A stretch of 24,422 nucleotides of DNA from a virus: IMG/VR virus record IMGVR_UViG_3300033144_003459, positions 1 to 24,422 of that record, one strand, 5' to 3'. A program made the position numbers and the translations under genes. Position 1 is the stretch's first letter. The number at the start of each line of letters is the position of its first letter. This document shows, piece by piece, positions 13,446-24,422 of the stretch. The notes below the pieces were generated by a model. That model searched no databases. It was not told where the DNA came from and saw nothing but the letters and a program-made list of their open reading frames with translations.

Positions 13446-15583
13446 TATTTTGCTCCTGCTTTTGCTTTGGGTTTAGATGCTGCGGCTTTGATTTTCTTTT
13501 CTTCCAGTTCTTTGTTTTGAGCAAGCTCCAGTCCTTTCATTTCCTTGTTGTCTTCAAGTTCTTTAGCTTTAAGTAACAGGGTACGCCGCATTTCATCGCG
13601 TTTCAATCCAAGTTCACCTTGAACCTGCTCGCGCTTTAACAGGGTATCAACTTTAAATTTTTCAATATCAATAACATTAGCACTGTTATCACCTGATTCA
13701 CCGGCTTCAGCGTTAGTCTTATTTGCCCGGGCTATTGTAAATTGAGTATCTGCTTTTTTAGCTTCGATTTCAGCTGCCAGGGCCTGAGCTTCCAGCTCCT
13801 TAATCTGAAGTTCAAGTTCTGCCAACTTCTGATCAATCTCGGAGGGATCAGTATCACCGGTTAATCGTTTGTTAGCTTCAATGATTTCTTCCTTGTTTGA
13901 TAAATTTGAAGACTCGATAAGAACAGAATCAGGAATAGTAACTCCCATTTCGCGCATATCTTTTGCTTCCTGAAACTGAGTTTCACGATAACTATCTTTT
14001 GCAGGCGCGTCGGTAACAGTTACTTCATATTCACCAATCATCAGGTTATTAGATATTTCACCTGCTGCATTGCGCTGGTTGATAATTATTTCTTCTGATT
14101 TCGAATCAAGACTATTACCAGTTACACGAAAAATACGTTCTTCAGTATAGAACTCCTGAACAAGATCCAGTACACGCTTTGCAACAAGTCGTCTGGTTCG
14201 AGCCAGGTTAAAAAATGCCTTGGCCTGATTAACGCCGCCTGCTGCTTGTTTGGCTTGAATAGCTTTAGCAGCTACATCGGCGCGATCGAATCCTCGTAAC
14301 GAATCCGATACACCGGACAGCTCTTTAATAAACTCGTCAGCTTTAAAAGCTAATCGATCAAGTCCTTGCGGAATCTGGTTTGGTTGGATCTTCTCAAGAG
14401 GCTCGGTACCCTTCTTCCTTACGAGAACAATCCCTGTTTCTGCTCCGCGTTGTTCCAGCTCATCAGGATCCATATTCATTAACTGGTCTTCTTCCATCTG
14501 CCAACCAGAGTTTGCCGTAGTATTTACTACGTGCAGTTCCTGAGAAGTTGTTTTGTTCAGAAAATCCTGAGAACTGATTAAGTTCTCAACCAGCCCGATA
14601 GTCTTCCCTTTATGGAAGATCGGAAAATATGGAACGACTGTAAAATGGTTAAAAGGACTCCAGTCGTCGTGGAATACATAGTTATCTGCAGTCACGAGCC
14701 ATTTAATTTGTTTGACTTTTTTCTTAATCGTTCCCAAGTTATATTTTTGTATAACTTCGTTGATTCTTTCCTTTTCCCATTTTTCAGGAATAGGTCGCAT
14801 ATCACCATTTACCAGGTCGACGAAATGATCTACGACGCGAACATGACGATACTGTCGTTCAATTACGCGTATATAACGACGATTATTCTGATCGGGATCT
14901 CCTGAGCCGGATATGGTTTGATTCAGTCCACGACCGCCAAAAGTGTTTTCAAGACTGTTGATTGAGTCGAGCCCATACTCGAAGTCACTACGACTTTTAT
15001 TCCGTAACATGTCGGCGTCCGCCTGATTATATGTCACGGCGATGTCGTCCGGCGTCAGCCATTTGGTAATAAAAACTTCGTTCCAGTCATCGGGGTCATA
15101 CGAATGTGCGTCGGGATCGATGACTACATTCTTGGAGTTTAGATTTCCTATCGACACTTCACCTCGCATCGCGTCGTCGAAACTTAGTCGTATATCCAAA
15201 AACCCCCTGGAAGAAATAATCCCTTCGTCAAATAATTCAGACTCGAGATGTTTCATATCCACATTGTTCATAATATGAATATAAAGTTTATTCAGTGCTT
15301 CAGATGTTTCAGGAACACCAGTAGCTGTTGGAATAAAGTTGATTGATGCCTGGTTCTGTAACTGCTCGCCCATGATGGTTAACAGCGTGCTAAATACTTT
15401 GTTAATTGTTAAAACCGGTTTGCCCTGTCTTTCGAGTCTCTGCTTAAAGATAGGACTCCATTGATTACCGTAGTAATAATCTTCGCAGAGTTTCGCTTTC
15501 CTTACAAAATCTAGATGACCGTTATCACGAGCATAGACATAATGATGCCAATTTTCTCTGGCGCGGGTAATATTAAGGGACAT
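13445..15583 (-). CDS. Portal protein, P22-like family, 712 aa
   Basis: Recognised by YGNQWSP (about 35-41), QRLERQGKPVLTINKV (about 44-59), ISSRGFLDIRLSFDD, a FNHFTVVPYFPIFHKGKTIGLV block (about 315-336), and LISSQDFLNKTTSQELHVVNTTANSGW (about 340-366), which is diagnostic of P22-type portals. SGVSDSLRG and the KAIQAKQAAGGVNQAKAFFN helix follow near 445-475. From about 585 to the end there is a long charged coiled coil with a Lys/Ala tail, comparable to the P22 barrel region. The protein forms the dodecameric DNA channel at one capsid vertex. The ATG at 15583 overlaps the upstream stop as TAATG and has an AAGGAAAATAA ribosome site. Confidence 0.92.
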   Translation of the reverse strand: MSLNITRARENWHHYVYARDNGHLDFVRKAKLCEDYYYGNQWSPIFKQRLERQGKPVLTINKVFSTLLTIMGEQLQNQASINFIPTATGVPETSEALNKLYIHIMNNVDMKHLESELFDEGIISSRGFLDIRLSFDDAMRGEVSIGNLNSKNVVIDPDAHSYDPDDWNEVFITKWLTPDDIAVTYNQADADMLRNKSRSDFEYGLDSINSLENTFGGRGLNQTISGSGDPDQNNRRYIRVIERQYRHVRVVDHFVDLVNGDMRPIPEKWEKERINEVIQKYNLGTIKKKVKQIKWLVTADNYVFHDDWSPFNHFTVVPYFPIFHKGKTIGLVENLISSQDFLNKTTSQELHVVNTTANSGWQMEEDQLMNMDPDELEQRGAETGIVLVRKKGTEPLEKIQPNQIPQGLDRLAFKADEFIKELSGVSDSLRGFDRADVAAKAIQAKQAAGGVNQAKAFFNLARTRRLVAKRVLDLVQEFYTEERIFRVTGNSLDSKSEEIIINQRNAAGEISNNLMIGEYEVTVTDAPAKDSYRETQFQEAKDMREMGVTIPDSVLIESSNLSNKEEIIEANKRLTGDTDPSEIDQKLAELELQIKELEAQALAAEIEAKKADTQFTIARANKTNAEAGESGDNSANVIDIEKFKVDTLLKREQVQGELGLKRDEMRRTLLLKAKELEDNKEMKGLELAQNKELEEKKIKAAASKPKAKAGAK

Positions 15584-15780
15584 TATTTATTTTCCTTTGC
15601 TCTTTTGTGGAGATTGCGTATATTAAAATCACCTTTTAGAAAACTACCTTTAAGTTTTTTTCTTTTACCCATATTTGCAAAATTTTTGCTGGTATCAAGA
15701 AAAGTTTTTTTAGCAGAAGTAACAGCGTCACGTAATGTTTTCTGTATTTTAACATGTTGTTTCTTTTTTAAAAGAACCAT
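15583..15780 (-). CDS. Small basic protein between large terminase and portal, 65 aa
   Basis: I take the ATG at 15780 (MVLLKKKQHVKIQKTL), which has AGGA about nine bases upstream and lies just after the terminase stop. A longer frame from 15849 would overlap the terminase and is unlikely. The protein is strongly basic (KRKKLKG, HKRAKENK) with a probable central helix (LRDAVTSAKKTFLDTSKNF). Its stop overlaps the portal start. It has no family I recognise, and its position in the packaging block suggests a packaging or head-assembly helper. Confidence 0.6.
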   Translation of the reverse strand: MVLLKKKQHVKIQKTLRDAVTSAKKTFLDTSKNFANMGKRKKLKGSFLKGDFNIRNLHKRAKENK

Positions 15781-15791
15781 ACAAAAAAGTC

Positions 15792-17738
15792 CTACGCAGT
15801 CATTGGGTGGCGTTCGCCTTGAGTATACACTTTCAGACGATCGCGCCAACCTTTTAATTTCTTCATTTTCTTTCTTTTCGGCGGTGAAACATTAATAAAC
15901 ATACGTACTAACCATGCCATCGCATCAACCTGATCGTCGTGAACTCCCCCGGGGAACCTTAACATTTCATGCCGGCAGTCTTCGACCCACGGATTATTCT
16001 GTTCCGGTGGAAAAATAACTCGTCCTTGTTGCATCCGTCCTTGAAGTGGACGCGCACGCATTAATTTATCAGTTAACGGATTAAGTGTATTATCAAATGA
16101 TGGGAACAGTCGGCGTTCATCCATTAACCTCCGTATATGCGGTCCAATTGCCAACTCCAACTGCCCCCTTTCTATTCCTACCACAACACTGCCAATTGTT
16201 TGTTCGTTATATTTCTCATAAGTATTGATAATTAATTCCGCGCTTTGGTGAGTCTCCCATTTTCCACGAAGTACTTCTAAAATGTGAATATTGTCATACT
16301 CATCCAACGCCCCTACAACGCCTACAGTAAAGTCATTTTGTTGCTTGAGTCCTACTGCCAGATCCCAGGCTATACAAATAGGCATCGCGGTCCAAGTTGG
16401 AAACTGCTGGTACCTGAACATACTCTTAGTAAAGTACATACCTTCTTCAGGTACAGGATTCTGCTGGTAAAGTGCACTCCAATGTCTCGGTTGAGTCACT
16501 CTCTTTATTTTCATCAATCGTGTGTAATCGAATCTTTCTGGATGCAACGCATCGTTTTTCTTTCGCAGGAACTTGGATTTGGGACTTGCTGGATCCGTAG
16601 TAACGGATCCATCCAAATTTAACCACTCATCATTTATAGCTATCGCCGGATATTCAATAATTTCCCACTGGTCTATTTCTCTCATTGCCTGTTCATATTT
16701 AGCTTTGACCTGTTTCGGATCCATTCCTTGCTCGGCCCACATAGTTTTTAACTCATCGGCTTCTTTTATCGCCTCGCGCATCTGGTTAATCATTCGACCG
16801 CTTAGATCGTCATCATGCCAGCGGGTTTGAATCACTAACACACCGCCAGATGGATCAAGTCTTGTGTAGGCCGTGCTTCCCCACCAATCCCAGGTGCTGT
16901 TCCGCGTAGTTTCTGAATCTGCTTCTTCCGCATCCTTAACTGGATCGTCTACAATAAATATATGCGCACCTTTACCAGTTATACCACCGCCGACACCGGC
17001 AGGAATGTATCCACCTTTCTGAGTAGTCGACCAGCCCTCAACATTTTCGTTGGTTCTGTCCAATTTCGTATTTGGAAACATGACCTGGTATTTTTTATCT
17101 CGTAAAAATGCCCGAACCATTCTCGAAAACTTCATAGGAAGACTAGATGCATAGGAAGCTGCAATTATTTCAAGATGAGGGTAGTGTCCAAGCGCCCAAC
17201 CTGGAAAATGATGGCTTCCTATCGTACTTTTACCGTGTCGGGGAGGAACAAAGAGCATAAGCCGGGGTGATCTGCCTTCGATCACTGCTTTTAAGAACTT
17301 TGTAAGCCTGCGACAGATATCTTCGTGTACCCAACCAGCATTATAGTTAGGTTGGAACCTTTTTATGAATTCAACCAGCGATTTTTTAGCTAAAACACGA
17401 TTTAAAAGCTCTTTCTCAATATCGCTTTTAGTTCTCCGCGTCTGTTTGGGTCGTTTGGTAGGATTAGTAAGAATTTGTTTCGCAGCTTCAGCTTCGAGCG
17501 CCTCAATCAGATCAACCTGCTTCTGTACGTGCTTTTCAGCAAGCCGGATCTTGATTTTCTGTTTAAGAGTTACAGGATTAGTAGCATATTTAGCCTGTAA
17601 CTTATCATCACAGGGTATGCAATACTTCTTATAGGAACCTTTGTGCTGTTTCCTTCCATTCTTTTCTTCGTAAATAACCCAACGATGAAAAAATTGGGAA
17701 GTTTTTACCCTGTTACAGATTGAGCATGTGCTAGACAT
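15792..17738 (-). CDS. terL: Terminase large subunit (ATPase/nuclease packaging motor), 648 aa
   Basis: It pumps DNA into the procapsid and cuts concatemers. Seen: Walker A PPRHGKST (about 165-172); Walker B IFIVDD (about 260-265); the coupling region QTRWHDDDLSGRM (about 304-316); and nuclease motifs with acidic residues at ICIAWDLAV (about D459), VVVGIE (about E523) and HDDQVDAMA (about 600-608), as in the RNase H-like terminase nuclease. The N terminus carries an extra CSIC...CIPC pair (about 5-8 and 40-43), a probable zinc ribbon. The length is above the usual 450-550. I chose the ATG at 17738, which overlaps the upstream stop as ATGTCTAG; a TTG at 17759 and an ATG at 17750 are possible but lack better ribosome sites. 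Confidence 0.92.
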   Translation of the reverse strand: MSSTCSICNRVKTSQFFHRWVIYEEKNGRKQHKGSYKKYCIPCDDKLQAKYATNPVTLKQKIKIRLAEKHVQKQVDLIEALEAEAAKQILTNPTKRPKQTRRTKSDIEKELLNRVLAKKSLVEFIKRFQPNYNAGWVHEDICRRLTKFLKAVIEGRSPRLMLFVPPRHGKSTIGSHHFPGWALGHYPHLEIIAASYASSLPMKFSRMVRAFLRDKKYQVMFPNTKLDRTNENVEGWSTTQKGGYIPAGVGGGITGKGAHIFIVDDPVKDAEEADSETTRNSTWDWWGSTAYTRLDPSGGVLVIQTRWHDDDLSGRMINQMREAIKEADELKTMWAEQGMDPKQVKAKYEQAMREIDQWEIIEYPAIAINDEWLNLDGSVTTDPASPKSKFLRKKNDALHPERFDYTRLMKIKRVTQPRHWSALYQQNPVPEEGMYFTKSMFRYQQFPTWTAMPICIAWDLAVGLKQQNDFTVGVVGALDEYDNIHILEVLRGKWETHQSAELIINTYEKYNEQTIGSVVVGIERGQLELAIGPHIRRLMDERRLFPSFDNTLNPLTDKLMRARPLQGRMQQGRVIFPPEQNNPWVEDCRHEMLRFPGGVHDDQVDAMAWLVRMFINVSPPKRKKMKKLKGWRDRLKVYTQGERHPMTA

Positions 17739-18281: not shown

Positions 18282-18767
18282 TTAATTTTCAGGGGGAAGT
18301 TCACTGAATTCAGCATCGATGTACGGTTGCTCCTTATCCAGCTCTAACAATAACTCCTCCTCACTCATTTCTTCCATCTGTTGTAAACGCTGAGTATGTT
18401 CAACCGATACGAGAACCTCCTTTTTCTCAGGTGCATAATAACCCTGCATCTTGTTAAATTCCTGCGCCCCGCGAATCATCGCAGTCGGGTCGCAAGTAAG
18501 CCGTGCTATTTCAACTGCATCCTCTACTACTTCCATTACCTTATCCCTTGTATATACAGCTTCCTTGCGGGTAATTTTAACATGCTTGGCAATTTGTTCC
18601 TGAACATAAGGATCTTCTTCCCATTTCAGGTAATCCCGTTTACTTTTATAACCAGCCTGCAAAGCAGCTTGCCTTGGTGTAAAACCAGTTATACGGAGAT
18701 TAATATAATTCTCGATAGAAAAATCTATAGGATCTTCCTGAATAACTAAAGATGCGGCTCGTGACAT
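18282..18767 (-). CDS. terS: Terminase small subunit (DNA recognition), 161 aa
   Basis: The N-terminal part contains a helix-turn-helix-like RITGFTPRQAALQAGY at about 25-40, followed by the helical core (TRDKVMEVVEDAVEIARL, PTAMIRGAQEFNKMQGYYAPEKKEV) and an acidic C-terminal tail (MEEMSEEELLLELDKE). HTH, oligomerisation helices and acidic end in this order are typical of small terminases that bind the packaging site and load the large subunit. The ATG at 18767 lies six bases beyond a predicted -10 box, so the mRNA may begin at the start codon. A TTG at 18809 would add 14 basic residues but would be upstream of that promoter. It heads the leftward packaging/structural block. Confidence 0.75.
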   Translation of the reverse strand: MSRAASLVIQEDPIDFSIENYINLRITGFTPRQAALQAGYKSKRDYLKWEEDPYVQEQIAKHVKITRKEAVYTRDKVMEVVEDAVEIARLTCDPTAMIRGAQEFNKMQGYYAPEKKEVLVSVEHTQRLQQMEEMSEEELLLELDKEQPYIDAEFSELPPEN

Positions 18768-18959: not shown

Positions 18960-18981
18960 AAAATTGTTATATAACAATTTT
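18960..18981. promoter_or_regulatory. 22-bp perfect palindrome, operator-like
   Basis: AAAATTGTTAT followed directly by its reverse complement ATAACAATTTT. A further TTGTTATAT half-copy begins at 18980, 16 bases (about 1.5 helical turns) after the first at 18964. Palindrome plus spaced half-site is typical of a dimeric DNA-binding protein's operator. It lies between the leftward and rightward programmes, so a transcription switch is plausible. Confidence 0.5.
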
Positions 18982-18993
18982 GTTATATTTTCA

Positions 18994-19062
18994 TACCCCT
19001 AAACTAAAATAAAAACCTTATTTGCACATTTTCTGCAAAAACATAAAAAATAATTAGGGGTA
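18994..19062. repeat. Long inverted repeat TACCCCTAA/TTAGGGGTA with inner hairpin
   Basis: Nine-base arms at 18994-19002 and 19054-19062 enclose 51 very AT-rich bases. Inside sits TTTGCA/TGCAAA (19021-19026 and 19034-19039). The GC-rich tips in an AT-rich field could form a cruciform or a large RNA hairpin. Use as an origin element, regulator site or leader structure cannot be told apart from sequence. Confidence 0.4.
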
Positions 19063-19263
19063 AATAAAAAATAAAAAATTTTGAAAAAAGTTACGAGGTA
19101 TGACGGACGAGGGGGTCTCCCTCGTTCCGAGAAGTGCACCCCCCACTTCGGATTCGGATTCGCTGCGAGACGTTAGGAGTCCCAGACTTCGATCACCAAC
19201 AGCACTGCGCCTTATCGATACACTCATGCGTAGCTGTGTGTACCACGCCACCACGTACTTCGC
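19063..19263. other. Non-coding stretch of the divergent control region
   Basis: An A-rich start (19063-19090) switches abruptly to GC-richer DNA from about 19092. A small hairpin ACGAGGG/CCCTCGT (19107-19113 and 19119-19125) is present. Short open frames on both strands (19100-19297 rightward, 19054-19266 leftward) lack spaced ribosome sites and have Ser/Arg-rich low-complexity products, so I do not call them. No complete tRNA could be folded. Confidence 0.4.
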
Positions 19264-22163: not shown

Positions 22164-22379
22164 ATGTTCAAATCAATTAAAATATGGTGGCTTAAACGCC
22201 AAGCAAGACGCTGGTATCTTCTTGCTACAACCATTCCTGATTACATGGATTGTGGAATAACTATGGCTAAATATATTCGTCCAGAAATGTTACAAGCTGA
22301 ATATGCTTATGATAATATAGCAGATAAATTAACAGCTTTAAACGAATCTATTCCAGAGTTTAGATTTCATAAACCATGA
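22164..22379 (+). CDS. Small basic/aromatic hypothetical protein, 71 aa
   Basis: ATG at 22164 with GGGG eight bases upstream. The N terminus is basic and Trp-rich (FKSIKIWWLKRQARRWYLL), possibly membrane-associated. The rest is helical (YIRPEMLQAEYAYDNIADKLTAL). The stop overlaps the next start as ATGA. First of three coupled AT-rich genes with no visible promoter of their own, so read-through past the terminator or a cryptic promoter is needed. Not recognised. Confidence 0.6.
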   Translation: MFKSIKIWWLKRQARRWYLLATTIPDYMDCGITMAKYIRPEMLQAEYAYDNIADKLTALNESIPEFRFHKP

Positions 22380-22714
22380 GTTTTATACCAATAACACCAG
22401 CAGGATCAGTATGTGCTCACTTAGAATCAGATACTGAAGAAGAAGCATGGACAGCTTTAATGAAAGATGCTGCTCATATGCCATATCCAGATAAAGCTGC
22501 ATTCATTAACCGTGGATATACTGTTGAAGCATGGGGAGAAAATAAAACCACACTTGATGAATTACAAGATAAAGTATCTCTTGCTATGCAATCTGATTTA
22601 GAACATGGTGTTGCGTGGATGAACGAAGAAGCAGCTGCTAAATTCGCTAAAGAATATCCAAGCATCATCGAAGTCCTTGGTTGGATAGCTGAAATAGATG
22701 AGATAATAAAATGA
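22376..22714 (+). CDS. Hypothetical protein, 112 aa
   Basis: ATG at 22376 overlaps the previous stop, and its own stop overlaps the next start (ATGA both times). The acidic protein reads like a small alpha/beta fold: FIPITPAGSVCAHLESDTEEEAWTALMKDA at the start, GYTVEAWGE near 47-55, then helices to EIDEIIK. The EEEAWTALMKDA...RGYTVEAW arrangement resembles small phage proteins of unknown role that I have no name for. No catalytic residues stand out. Confidence 0.6.
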   Translation: MSFIPITPAGSVCAHLESDTEEEAWTALMKDAAHMPYPDKAAFINRGYTVEAWGENKTTLDELQDKVSLAMQSDLEHGVAWMNEEAAAKFAKEYPSIIEVLGWIAEIDEIIK

Positions 22715-22893
22715 CAATTACCGGAACTGATTTATCAGAAGAACAAGAACAAGAACAATTCCATAAAGCTCTCAATTTACTCGAAGCAGCTAAAATACCT
22801 GTCAATACCCTGGTAGCTAGATTAATAATAATTCTAATCAAAAAACAACTATTAACAGAGACAGATATCCATTTTTTAGTCCAAAAAGACTGA
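22711..22893 (+). CDS. Small helical hypothetical protein, 60 aa
   Basis: ATG at 22711 overlapping the upstream stop. Acidic Glu/Gln-rich start (LSEEQEQEQFHKALNLLEAA) then a hydrophobic helix (NTLVARLIIILIKKQLLTETDI). Predicted all-helical, possibly oligomeric. It is the last gene before the repeat-dense region and primase. Not recognised. Confidence 0.55.
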   Translation: MTITGTDLSEEQEQEQFHKALNLLEAAKIPVNTLVARLIIILIKKQLLTETDIHFLVQKD

Positions 22894-23175
22894 TTACGAG
22901 ATTACACTTTTGAAATCAAAGTCGTAATCGATAAGTCATTGATTTCATTGACTCGATTACGGTTTATTACGAAAATCGGCCTTTTTCGGAAATTAGTAGG
23001 AGAGAGCCGGAAGTATAGCCAAGTATAAATAATAAAATATATACTTTTCATTTTATACCCAATATTCTATATATTGTAATAAGTGTAATAAAGTGTAATC
23101 CAAGTAGTAAAATCAATGACTTAACACTTTTTCAAAAGTGTAATTTATCGTAATAATTGATCTCAAAAGTGTAAT
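22892..23175. repeat. Iteron-like, AT-rich repeat region (candidate replication origin)
   Basis: The box TCAAAAGTGTAAT occurs inverted at 22901-22913 and direct at 23132-23144 and 23163-23175. Shortened forms TAAGTGTAAT and AAAGTGTAAT lie head-to-tail at 23080-23099, and an inverted ACACTTTT at 23124-23131 makes a hairpin with the neighbouring box. CGTAATCG (22923-22930) pairs with CGATTACG (22954-22961), with AGTCA/TGACT inside. TAAGTCATTGATTT (22932-22945) recurs inverted at 23110-23123. Repeated protein-binding boxes in AT-rich DNA directly before a primase gene fit an origin or a replication-gene operator. No coding frame was found here. Confidence 0.6.
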
Positions 23176-23187
23176 CTTATTATTTGA

Positions 23188-23216
23188 TTGATTTTTACCC
23201 AATTCAGTTTTATAAT
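23188..23216 (+). promoter_or_regulatory. Near-consensus sigma70 promoter for the primase gene
   Basis: TTGATT (23188-23193), a 17-base spacer, TATAAT (23211-23216). The start point should be near 23223, giving a leader of about 33 bases with GGGG seven bases before the ATG at 23256. The last iteron-like box ends 12 bases before the -35, so its binding protein could regulate this promoter. Confidence 0.8.
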
Positions 23217-23255: not shown

Positions 23256-24422
23256 ATGCAGAAAATACTGGTATATACACTAGCATCTTCTAATGGTGTG
23301 CACCTGTCAAAAACCAAAACAACATCGTATCCATTAGTTAAAAATTTCAATTCTAAAGAACATACAATTACAACTCCGCAGCAGTTATTTAATGTCATAA
23401 ATAAAGCTGCAGACACTGGGCATTGTCTCATTAAAGGTATGCTCACCAGGCAATTGAACGACGAAAGTAGAGCACGCTCTACAGATCCAGTTCTCCAAAC
23501 TCAGTGGATAGTTTTCGATATTGACGGTGCACCATACAAATCACCGGAAGATTTCGTTCATGAGTTACCAAAAGAATTTCACGATGTTAGCTATACAACC
23601 CAGTATTCTGCATCACAAGGATTAAAGCCTGGTTTACGATGCCATCTCTTTTTTCTACTTAAAGAACCAGCTTACCCAGTTTATTTAAAAACATGGTTAA
23701 AACATCTTAATTTCAGTATTCCAACATTAACCAACGCATTAAAATTAACATCAACCAGCGTTGCTTTACTCTGGCCTCTAGATATCACAGTATGTCAGAA
23801 CGATAAAATTATTTATGTTGCGAGCCCACAAGATCGAACCGACAAAAAAAGACCGAATCCCTGGGTTTCTTTTAGTAAGAAAAAGAACACACATGTTAAA
23901 TTCGCCGGCATAAAATTCGACACAAATGAAACACGGTTAAACGAAAAGAAACACATAAATAGAATTAGAAAAGACCAGAATCTTTCGGTTAGAAAACAAC
24001 TTAACATGAAGAAAATTGGTACCTTCGATGTCTTATCTAATCCAGGTGAATGCGTCGTAACCGGACATAAAATAGAAAGAGAATTTAATTACCTCAACCT
24101 AAATGGCGGTGACTCGTGGGGTTACTATCACGCAATTGGGAAGAATGAGATCTTATTTAATTTTAAAGGTGAACCCCTTTACTTAATTAAAGAACTCCTC
24201 CCTGAGTATTACAAACAAATAAACGAAGATAAAGATGTGCCCACAAACACCATCGAGTCAGAAGTAGATTCATCAGCATACAGATATCTAGCCTTCTGCG
24301 ATGCAAAGACCGATGCATATTATAGAGGTACTTTCGACGAAGTAGAAAATTACCTCGAAATATTTAAAACAAACAGTTTAGTTAAAGTAAAGCATTTTTT
24401 AAAACAGCATGGTCAATACGTA
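23256..24422 (+). CDS. Archaeo-eukaryotic-type (AEP/PrimPol-like) primase, N-terminal 389 aa (cut by window edge)
   Basis: The frame is open to the right edge. Motif I: WIVFDID (about 84-90, D88/D90). Motif II: YSASQGLKPGLRCHLFF (about 117-133, H130, the s-x-H type). Motif III: WPLDITVC (D176), followed by NDKIIYVASP, a segment usual after motif III in phage and plasmid primase-polymerases. A second part with EREFNYLNLNGGDSWGYYH (about 274-292) and FNFKGEPLYLIKELLPEYY follows, resembling the linker seen before helicase domains in phage primase-helicases. The expected role is primer synthesis for phage DNA replication. A helicase domain, if present, lies outside the window. Promoter and iteron-like boxes lie directly upstream. 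Confidence 0.75.
   Translation, partial: MQKILVYTLASSNGVHLSKTKTTSYPLVKNFNSKEHTITTPQQLFNVINKAADTGHCLIKGMLTRQLNDESRARSTDPVLQTQWIVFDIDGAPYKSPEDFVHELPKEFHDVSYTTQYSASQGLKPGLRCHLFFLLKEPAYPVYLKTWLKHLNFSIPTLTNALKLTSTSVALLWPLDITVCQNDKIIYVASPQDRTDKKRPNPWVSFSKKKNTHVKFAGIKFDTNETRLNEKKHINRIRKDQNLSVRKQLNMKKIGTFDVLSNPGECVVTGHKIEREFNYLNLNGGDSWGYYHAIGKNEILFNFKGEPLYLIKELLPEYYKQINEDKDVPTNTIESEVDSSAYRYLAFCDAKTDAYYRGTFDEVENYLEIFKTNSLVKVKHFLKQHGQYV

Follow-up and report, generated by a model that had tools for sequence, protein, structure and literature searches.

The DNA analysed here, referred to as the window, is the whole 24,422-nt stretch of virus record IMGVR_UViG_3300033144_003459, from a tailed phage of lytic type that is a distant relative of Pseudomonas phage KPP25. 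Directly 5' of a primase-helicase gene lies an origin-like module of about 285 bases with the following components.

22892..23175, no strand assigned: whole module, two box arrays flanking an AT-rich core; a large imperfect inverted repeat
22892..22971, minus strand: left box array, ATTAC at 22893(-), 22901(-), 22956(-) and 22966(-), and a single GTAAT at 22924(+)
22901-22913, minus strand: full box TCAAAAGTGTAAT in the left array, exact match
22932..22944, minus strand: IHF-consensus site AATCAATGACTTA (WATCAANNNNTTR), inverted copy, exact consensus
23021..23075, no strand assigned: AT-rich core and putative DNA unwinding element, 19% GC over the 120 bp starting at 23026
23076..23099, plus strand: three tandem GTAAT boxes starting at 23076, 23085 and 23095, spacing 9-10 bp
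23081-23089 and 23091-23099, plus strand: short copies AAGTGTAAT within the tandem GTAAT boxes
23111..23123, plus strand: IHF-consensus site AATCAATGACTTA, exact consensus, the copy whose orientation relatives keep
23122-23130: inverted partial copy AACACTTTT
23132..23144, plus strand: full box TCAAAAGTGTAAT, exact match
23150..23154, plus strand: GTAAT box in TATCGTAAT context
23163..23175, plus strand: full box TCAAAAGTGTAAT, exact match, the final one ahead of the promoter-like site
23188..23216, plus strand: promoter-like TTGATT-17-TATAAT, 10/12 consensus, by itself not above chance
23256..24422, plus strand: primase-helicase gene, ATG at 23256, truncated by the window end

The main box orientation is opposite in the two arrays. 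GTAAT motifs follow the order - - + - - on the left, then comes the AT-rich core, and then six + on the right. All five window copies of AGTGTAAT lie inside 22892-23175, and the module combines 5 AGTGTAAT and 11 GTAAT in ~285 bp, the compact arrangement of a short replicon-specific repeat that characterizes iteron-type origins. GTAAT/ATTAC reaches 11 per 300 bp, all within these limits, compared to 5 in the second-densest cluster of the window and to a maximum of 7 in simulated clusters (300 runs). Because this clustering exceeds all simulated windows, a chance origin of the boxes is excluded. Likewise, all five copies of AAGTGTAAT in the 24.4-kb window fall in the module region, with 0.38 expected window-wide, and a count of five was reached in none of 100 shuffles. 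The three full copies in two orientations, the two tandem short copies, the inverted partial copy and the high AT content described in the first-pass annotation were all recovered at the positions listed above.

Three features of the module had been overlooked there: two exact AATCAATGACTTA IHF-consensus sites in opposite orientation, the position of the 120 bp from 23026 as the second most AT-rich place in the window, and folding of the module as a single large imperfect inverted repeat (z -8.5 relative to shuffles). A bending-protein site is thereby indicated by match to the IHF consensus, and an AT-rich unwinding element beside the boxes, as in iteron-type origins, by base composition. The window's most AT-rich 120 bp (18% GC) is located at 18961-19080, between the terminase block and early genes. 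DnaA boxes are absent from the module, and an Rfam scan of the window gave no matches. The strong promoter proposed earlier was found as a promoter-like site at 23188, 12 bases past the last box (23175), and is unremarkable. Shuffles contain more such sites (14.8) than the region itself (9), and the promoter is therefore no evidence on its own.

The complete primase-helicase gene, coding for 794 aa, is present in a 99.5% identical contig, IMGVR_UViG_3300013098_000007 (L004:10001-12385). The protein appears PrimPol-like, has a DUF5906 SF3-type helicase, and is nearest in structure to the NrS-1 polymerase. The C-terminal half is a DUF5906/P4-type helicase of SF3 type, homologous to the NrS-1 helicase CTR (PDB 6k9c/6k9e; E 1.2e-35 by sequence and 1.2e-28 by fold), so that the helicase expected of NrS-1-like PrimPol-helicases is found by sequence and fold match. 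The structure predicted for the protein (pLDDT 84) resembles the NrS-1, poxvirus D5/E5 and SaPI primase-helicases. No variation occurs among 22 relatives at D88 and D90 (DxD), H130 and D176, the pattern that would be expected of an AEP primase, and no AEP family model matched the protein. The last 100 residues have a predicted helix-helix-strand-wing, winged-helix-like order, with weak Foldseek matches (best E 0.04 to NrS-1, others insignificant). Two related primases exceed the usual ~790 aa: one of 1066 aa carries an insertion, perhaps an intein (L033:5920-9120), and one of 849 aa carries a charged linker (L034:5935-8484).

Recurrence of the module in related phages

Among the members of the family are Pseudomonas phages KPP25, phiR18 and CRPAP1904, Aeromonas phage phiA008, and ~100 environmental contigs. 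About 70 relatives, with primases 31-45% identical, were compared. For 69 non-redundant relatives, the 600 bp ahead of the primase show a 7.4-fold enrichment of the IHF consensus WATCAANNNNTTR (p ~1e-9) and a 16.6-fold one of its tighter form RATCAANNRCTTR, with 11/11 of the latter in one orientation. Since upstream DNA is AT-rich, shuffles of the same DNA served as a control; the counts were 19 vs a mean of 1.9 (max 6) and, in a second comparison, 15 vs 0.26 (max 3), and the pattern read backwards occurred once. The exact consensus is found inside the 600 bp in only 15 of the 69. The genome's AT-richest 120 bp fall inside this stretch in 17/37 relatives, and the stretch ranks 1-2 for AT-richness in 23/37. 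The relatives are statistically non-independent.

Repeats peculiar to each phage flank the core, namely TTGGAATGGAAG (L009/L036), ATCGGAAG, CTTCCAAA (L015/L021), AGAATGAGATG (L012), TTTCGTAAGG (L020) and GTTCCGAAC (G015). The boxes of the window itself are kept in G028, which of the genomes of complete size gave the best match over the full length (43% in its best segment), as the conservation check suggested in the first-pass annotation revealed. Its module, 2.5 kb before the primase, has 10 GTAAT boxes in 300 bp and two ATCAATGACTTA, in an order (- - + - -, AT, + + + + -) nearly that of the window. A module right at the primase is absent in KPP25, phiA008, G024, G042 and several others. In G022, an IHF-type site ~3.4 kb before the primase is accompanied by TTGTACCAAACC repeats and by TGTGGATAA sequences, DnaA-box-like when read by eye (L055:3751-4451). 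Covariation between iterons and the recognition helix was looked at by eye, with too few cases.

A DNA-level search of phage records with 20.5-24.4 kb of the window found nothing, and exact-box pattern searches in viral contigs returned either the near-identical contig only or 51 stretches. That contig is unusable as a conservation test because it is 100% identical over the module. Matches of AATCAAGCACTTG beside a tRNA 3' end in G025 and G002, and beside a ribosome-binding site in G024, were not counted as modules. At L046:5517-6217 and L043:9458-10158, a tRNA 3' end is followed by AATCAAGCACTTGG in an att-like arrangement.

One of the small genes upstream of the module (22164-22893) had been put forward as a possible source of the box-binding protein, which our comparison did not support. 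The 71-aa and 112-aa ORFs are poorly conserved, with one homologue each among the relatives examined; for the 60-aa ORF and the 309-aa gene, homologues were limited to the near-identical contig. The small ORFs and the 309-aa gene were rejected as binder on account of this lack of conservation. The module has one conserved partner only, the primase-helicase.

Paired modules and GC skew

In 37 genomes, pairs of AT-rich segments with common repeats were sought without regard to the primase. Standout pairs were obtained in 16 of them and none in the remaining 21, and some standouts (G009, G042) consist of repeats of another sort. In the clearest cases, two modules are 0.31-0.50 of the genome apart. 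Separations, as genome fractions, are 0.494 in KPP25, 0.498 in G024, 0.500 in G012, 0.488 in G007, 0.498 in G025 and 0.459 in G015, with others at 0.31-0.43; possible incompleteness of several records blurs these fractions, and related genomes are non-independent. The KPP25 record (AB910393) has two unannotated modules with AT-rich cores at 26.2-26.9 and 58.2-58.6 kb, whose TCGTAACA clusters lie at 26.4-26.8 and 58.3-58.5 kb; one module occupies a non-coding gap of 677 bp, and a structural gene adjoins the other. In the 67.6-kb circle of G012, IHF cores occur at 18740 and 52528. About ten genomes give good support for the presence of two modules, and their near-opposite placement is suggestive. 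Exact antipodality as a rule was weakened at 37 genomes, where partner separations range from 0.08 to 0.50. Because distant modules share iterons, the protein reading the boxes would act in trans.

GC skew, a further check named in the first-pass annotation, had its cumulative maxima close to the module in most of the relatives that carry one. The detrended maximum lies at most 7 kb from the primase in 14/23 genomes with an AT-rich module vs 1/14 without (Fisher p 0.0016); the 7-kb limit was picked after the data had been seen, and limits of 5 and 12 kb give p 0.03 and p 0.002. The skew at the module is a maximum and not a minimum, a sign opposite to the usual bacterial one. Gene orientation could contribute to this association.

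The origin reading and its alternatives

Boxes, a meltable core and bending sites recur in many relatives, and it is therefore very probable that the module is a replication origin composed of iterons, IHF sites and an AT-rich region, which either the primase-helicase or some unseen initiator would open. Of the original iteron proposal, the reading as an origin gained from the IHF-type core, AT-rich core and phage-specific repeats of relatives and from the G028 boxes, and the binder encoded by an upstream gene was lost. Initiator-dependent origins are equipped in this way, with a meltable core between repeats, a bending site and a primase-helicase gene (PMC5043065, PMC6092414).

We infer binding, melting, initiation and autoregulation in the following manner. 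Copies of the initiator would bind GTAAT-type boxes on both sides of the core; the most likely initiator is the downstream primase-helicase, acting via its C-terminal domain, with an unseen phage initiator as the alternative. Host IHF or an IHF-like protein would bend the DNA at AATCAATGACTTA, bringing the two arrays together, which presumes that the host, whichever it is, possesses IHF. The AT-rich core would then melt, the SF3-type helicase would load as hexamers, and the PrimPol domain would lay primers. Boxes on the promoter side may also serve the initiator in autoregulation.

Such a layout could also suit transcription control, with the boxes as operators through which a repressor or activator times transcription of early or replication genes, and the AT-rich DNA as merely promoter DNA. 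The promoter-like site just past the last box, box orientations suited to a dimeric regulator, and second modules that could be additional operators are all compatible with this explanation, which we nevertheless regard as unlikely. The place upstream of the primase is often the most AT-rich of the entire genome, the orientation of the IHF-type core is fixed, the KPP25 modules in the non-coding gap and beside the structural gene are not obviously at early promoters, and no conserved regulator gene adjoins the module. Alternatively, the PrimPol-helicase would recognize an extruded hairpin in which the boxes are merely stem, in the manner of plasmid pRN1, whose replication protein (AEP, SF3 and winged helix) uses a stem-loop (PMC4234260). 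Folding far better than shuffles agrees with such an origin, and most modules of relatives fold as well (z -1.9 to -10.9). However, G028, with nearly the same box order, reaches only z -2.4 and L020 only z -1.9, oppositely oriented iterons would give such folding anyway, and the pRN1 loop is downstream of its gene; a stem-loop origin thus appears very unlikely. Iterons and AT-rich bends also occur at packaging and partition sites. Against a pac/cos site, the terminase genes at 15.8-18.8 kb are 4-7 kb away and every AGTGTAAT copy is in the module, with none beside terminase; among the proteins scanned, no partition gene was recognized; and chance is excluded for the boxes by the simulations. 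Packaging, partition and chance are accordingly considered highly improbable.

Returning to the iteron-type origin, paired modules lead to a broader and tentative proposal, somewhat short of an even chance in our estimation. The widespread 59-72 kb KPP25-like phage family may possess two roughly opposite iteron/AT-rich origins per genome, each phage with its own iteron and a co-diverging PrimPol-helicase, and some with a shared IHF-type core. In KPP25, a cultured phage, the two predicted origins would lie at about 26.3-26.9 and 58.2-58.6 kb, in the modules described above. No description of the origin of KPP25-related phages was found in the open-access literature searched, and phage origins with PrimPol/SF3 primase-helicases are hardly known. 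A portable, sequence-defined origin-initiator unit, present in tens of phages with differing iterons, would allow swaps of initiator-iteron specificity.

Comparison with known replicons and side loci

By analogy, the layout equals that of PICI/SaPI origins and would work like P4, SPP1 and lambda origins, being a member of none. Phage P4 has two cis sites, ori and crr. Its alpha protein, as Ziegelin 1993 is summarized in PMC4234260 and PMC9611036, unites a primase with an SF3 helicase and recognizes the origin at repeats; in contrast, the alpha primase is Toprim-type and the one studied here probably an AEP-type PrimPol, and box sequences differ. In PICIs and SaPIs, two iteron sets flank an AT-rich region, as 22893-22970 and 23076-23175 do around 23021-23075, the iteron sequence is element-specific, and primase and Rep are fused (PMC6092414); SaPI PriRep helicases match the primase-helicase in fold (SaPI5 PriRep structures 7ola and 7pds). 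The PICI origin is immediately 3' of rep, whereas the module is 5' of the primase-helicase gene, has an IHF-type core in addition, and is carried by a 59-72 kb phage family. According to PMC6092414, no other bacterial replicon was known to have iteron sets on either side of an AT-rich core, and the module bears on this published claim of uniqueness to PICIs.

Bacillus phage SPP1 similarly has two origins, oriL and oriR, each with repeats and an AT-rich unwinding element, although these are ~13 kb apart in 44 kb and served by a dedicated initiator, gp38, and a DnaB-type helicase (PMC6316719). ORF904 of pRN1, with AEP, SF3 helicase and a C-terminal winged helix, resembles the architecture predicted for our protein, while its origin, a stem-loop, lies downstream of the gene and has no iterons (PMC4234260). 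The closest solved relative, NrS-1 primase-polymerase, is reported to recognize TTTGGTTA on template DNA, and no iteron origin was found described in the NrS-1 literature consulted (PMC7102993, PMC8718748).

Some loci of the near-identical contig past the window end deserve mention. A tRNA-like segment in permuted order at L004:13228-13296 was rejected as a permuted tRNA in favor of a match to YrlA (Y RNA-like, RF02553; 48.3 bits, E 1e-9, below the curated cut-off of 69). It is followed by a 744-aa ORF without recognized family (13587-15821) and by an ORF that is von-Willebrand-like by eye, with no Pfam match (16800-17666); together these possibly form a Ro60-type RNP locus. An adenylosuccinate synthetase relative at L004:17663-18763 (Pfam 139 bits; PurZ model 34 bits, far below cut-off) is a possible base-modification (2-aminoadenine) gene. 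The ~600 bp of non-coding DNA at L004:12960-13586 include several imperfect copies of TTTTTAAGTTYGCCTRGTCAT.
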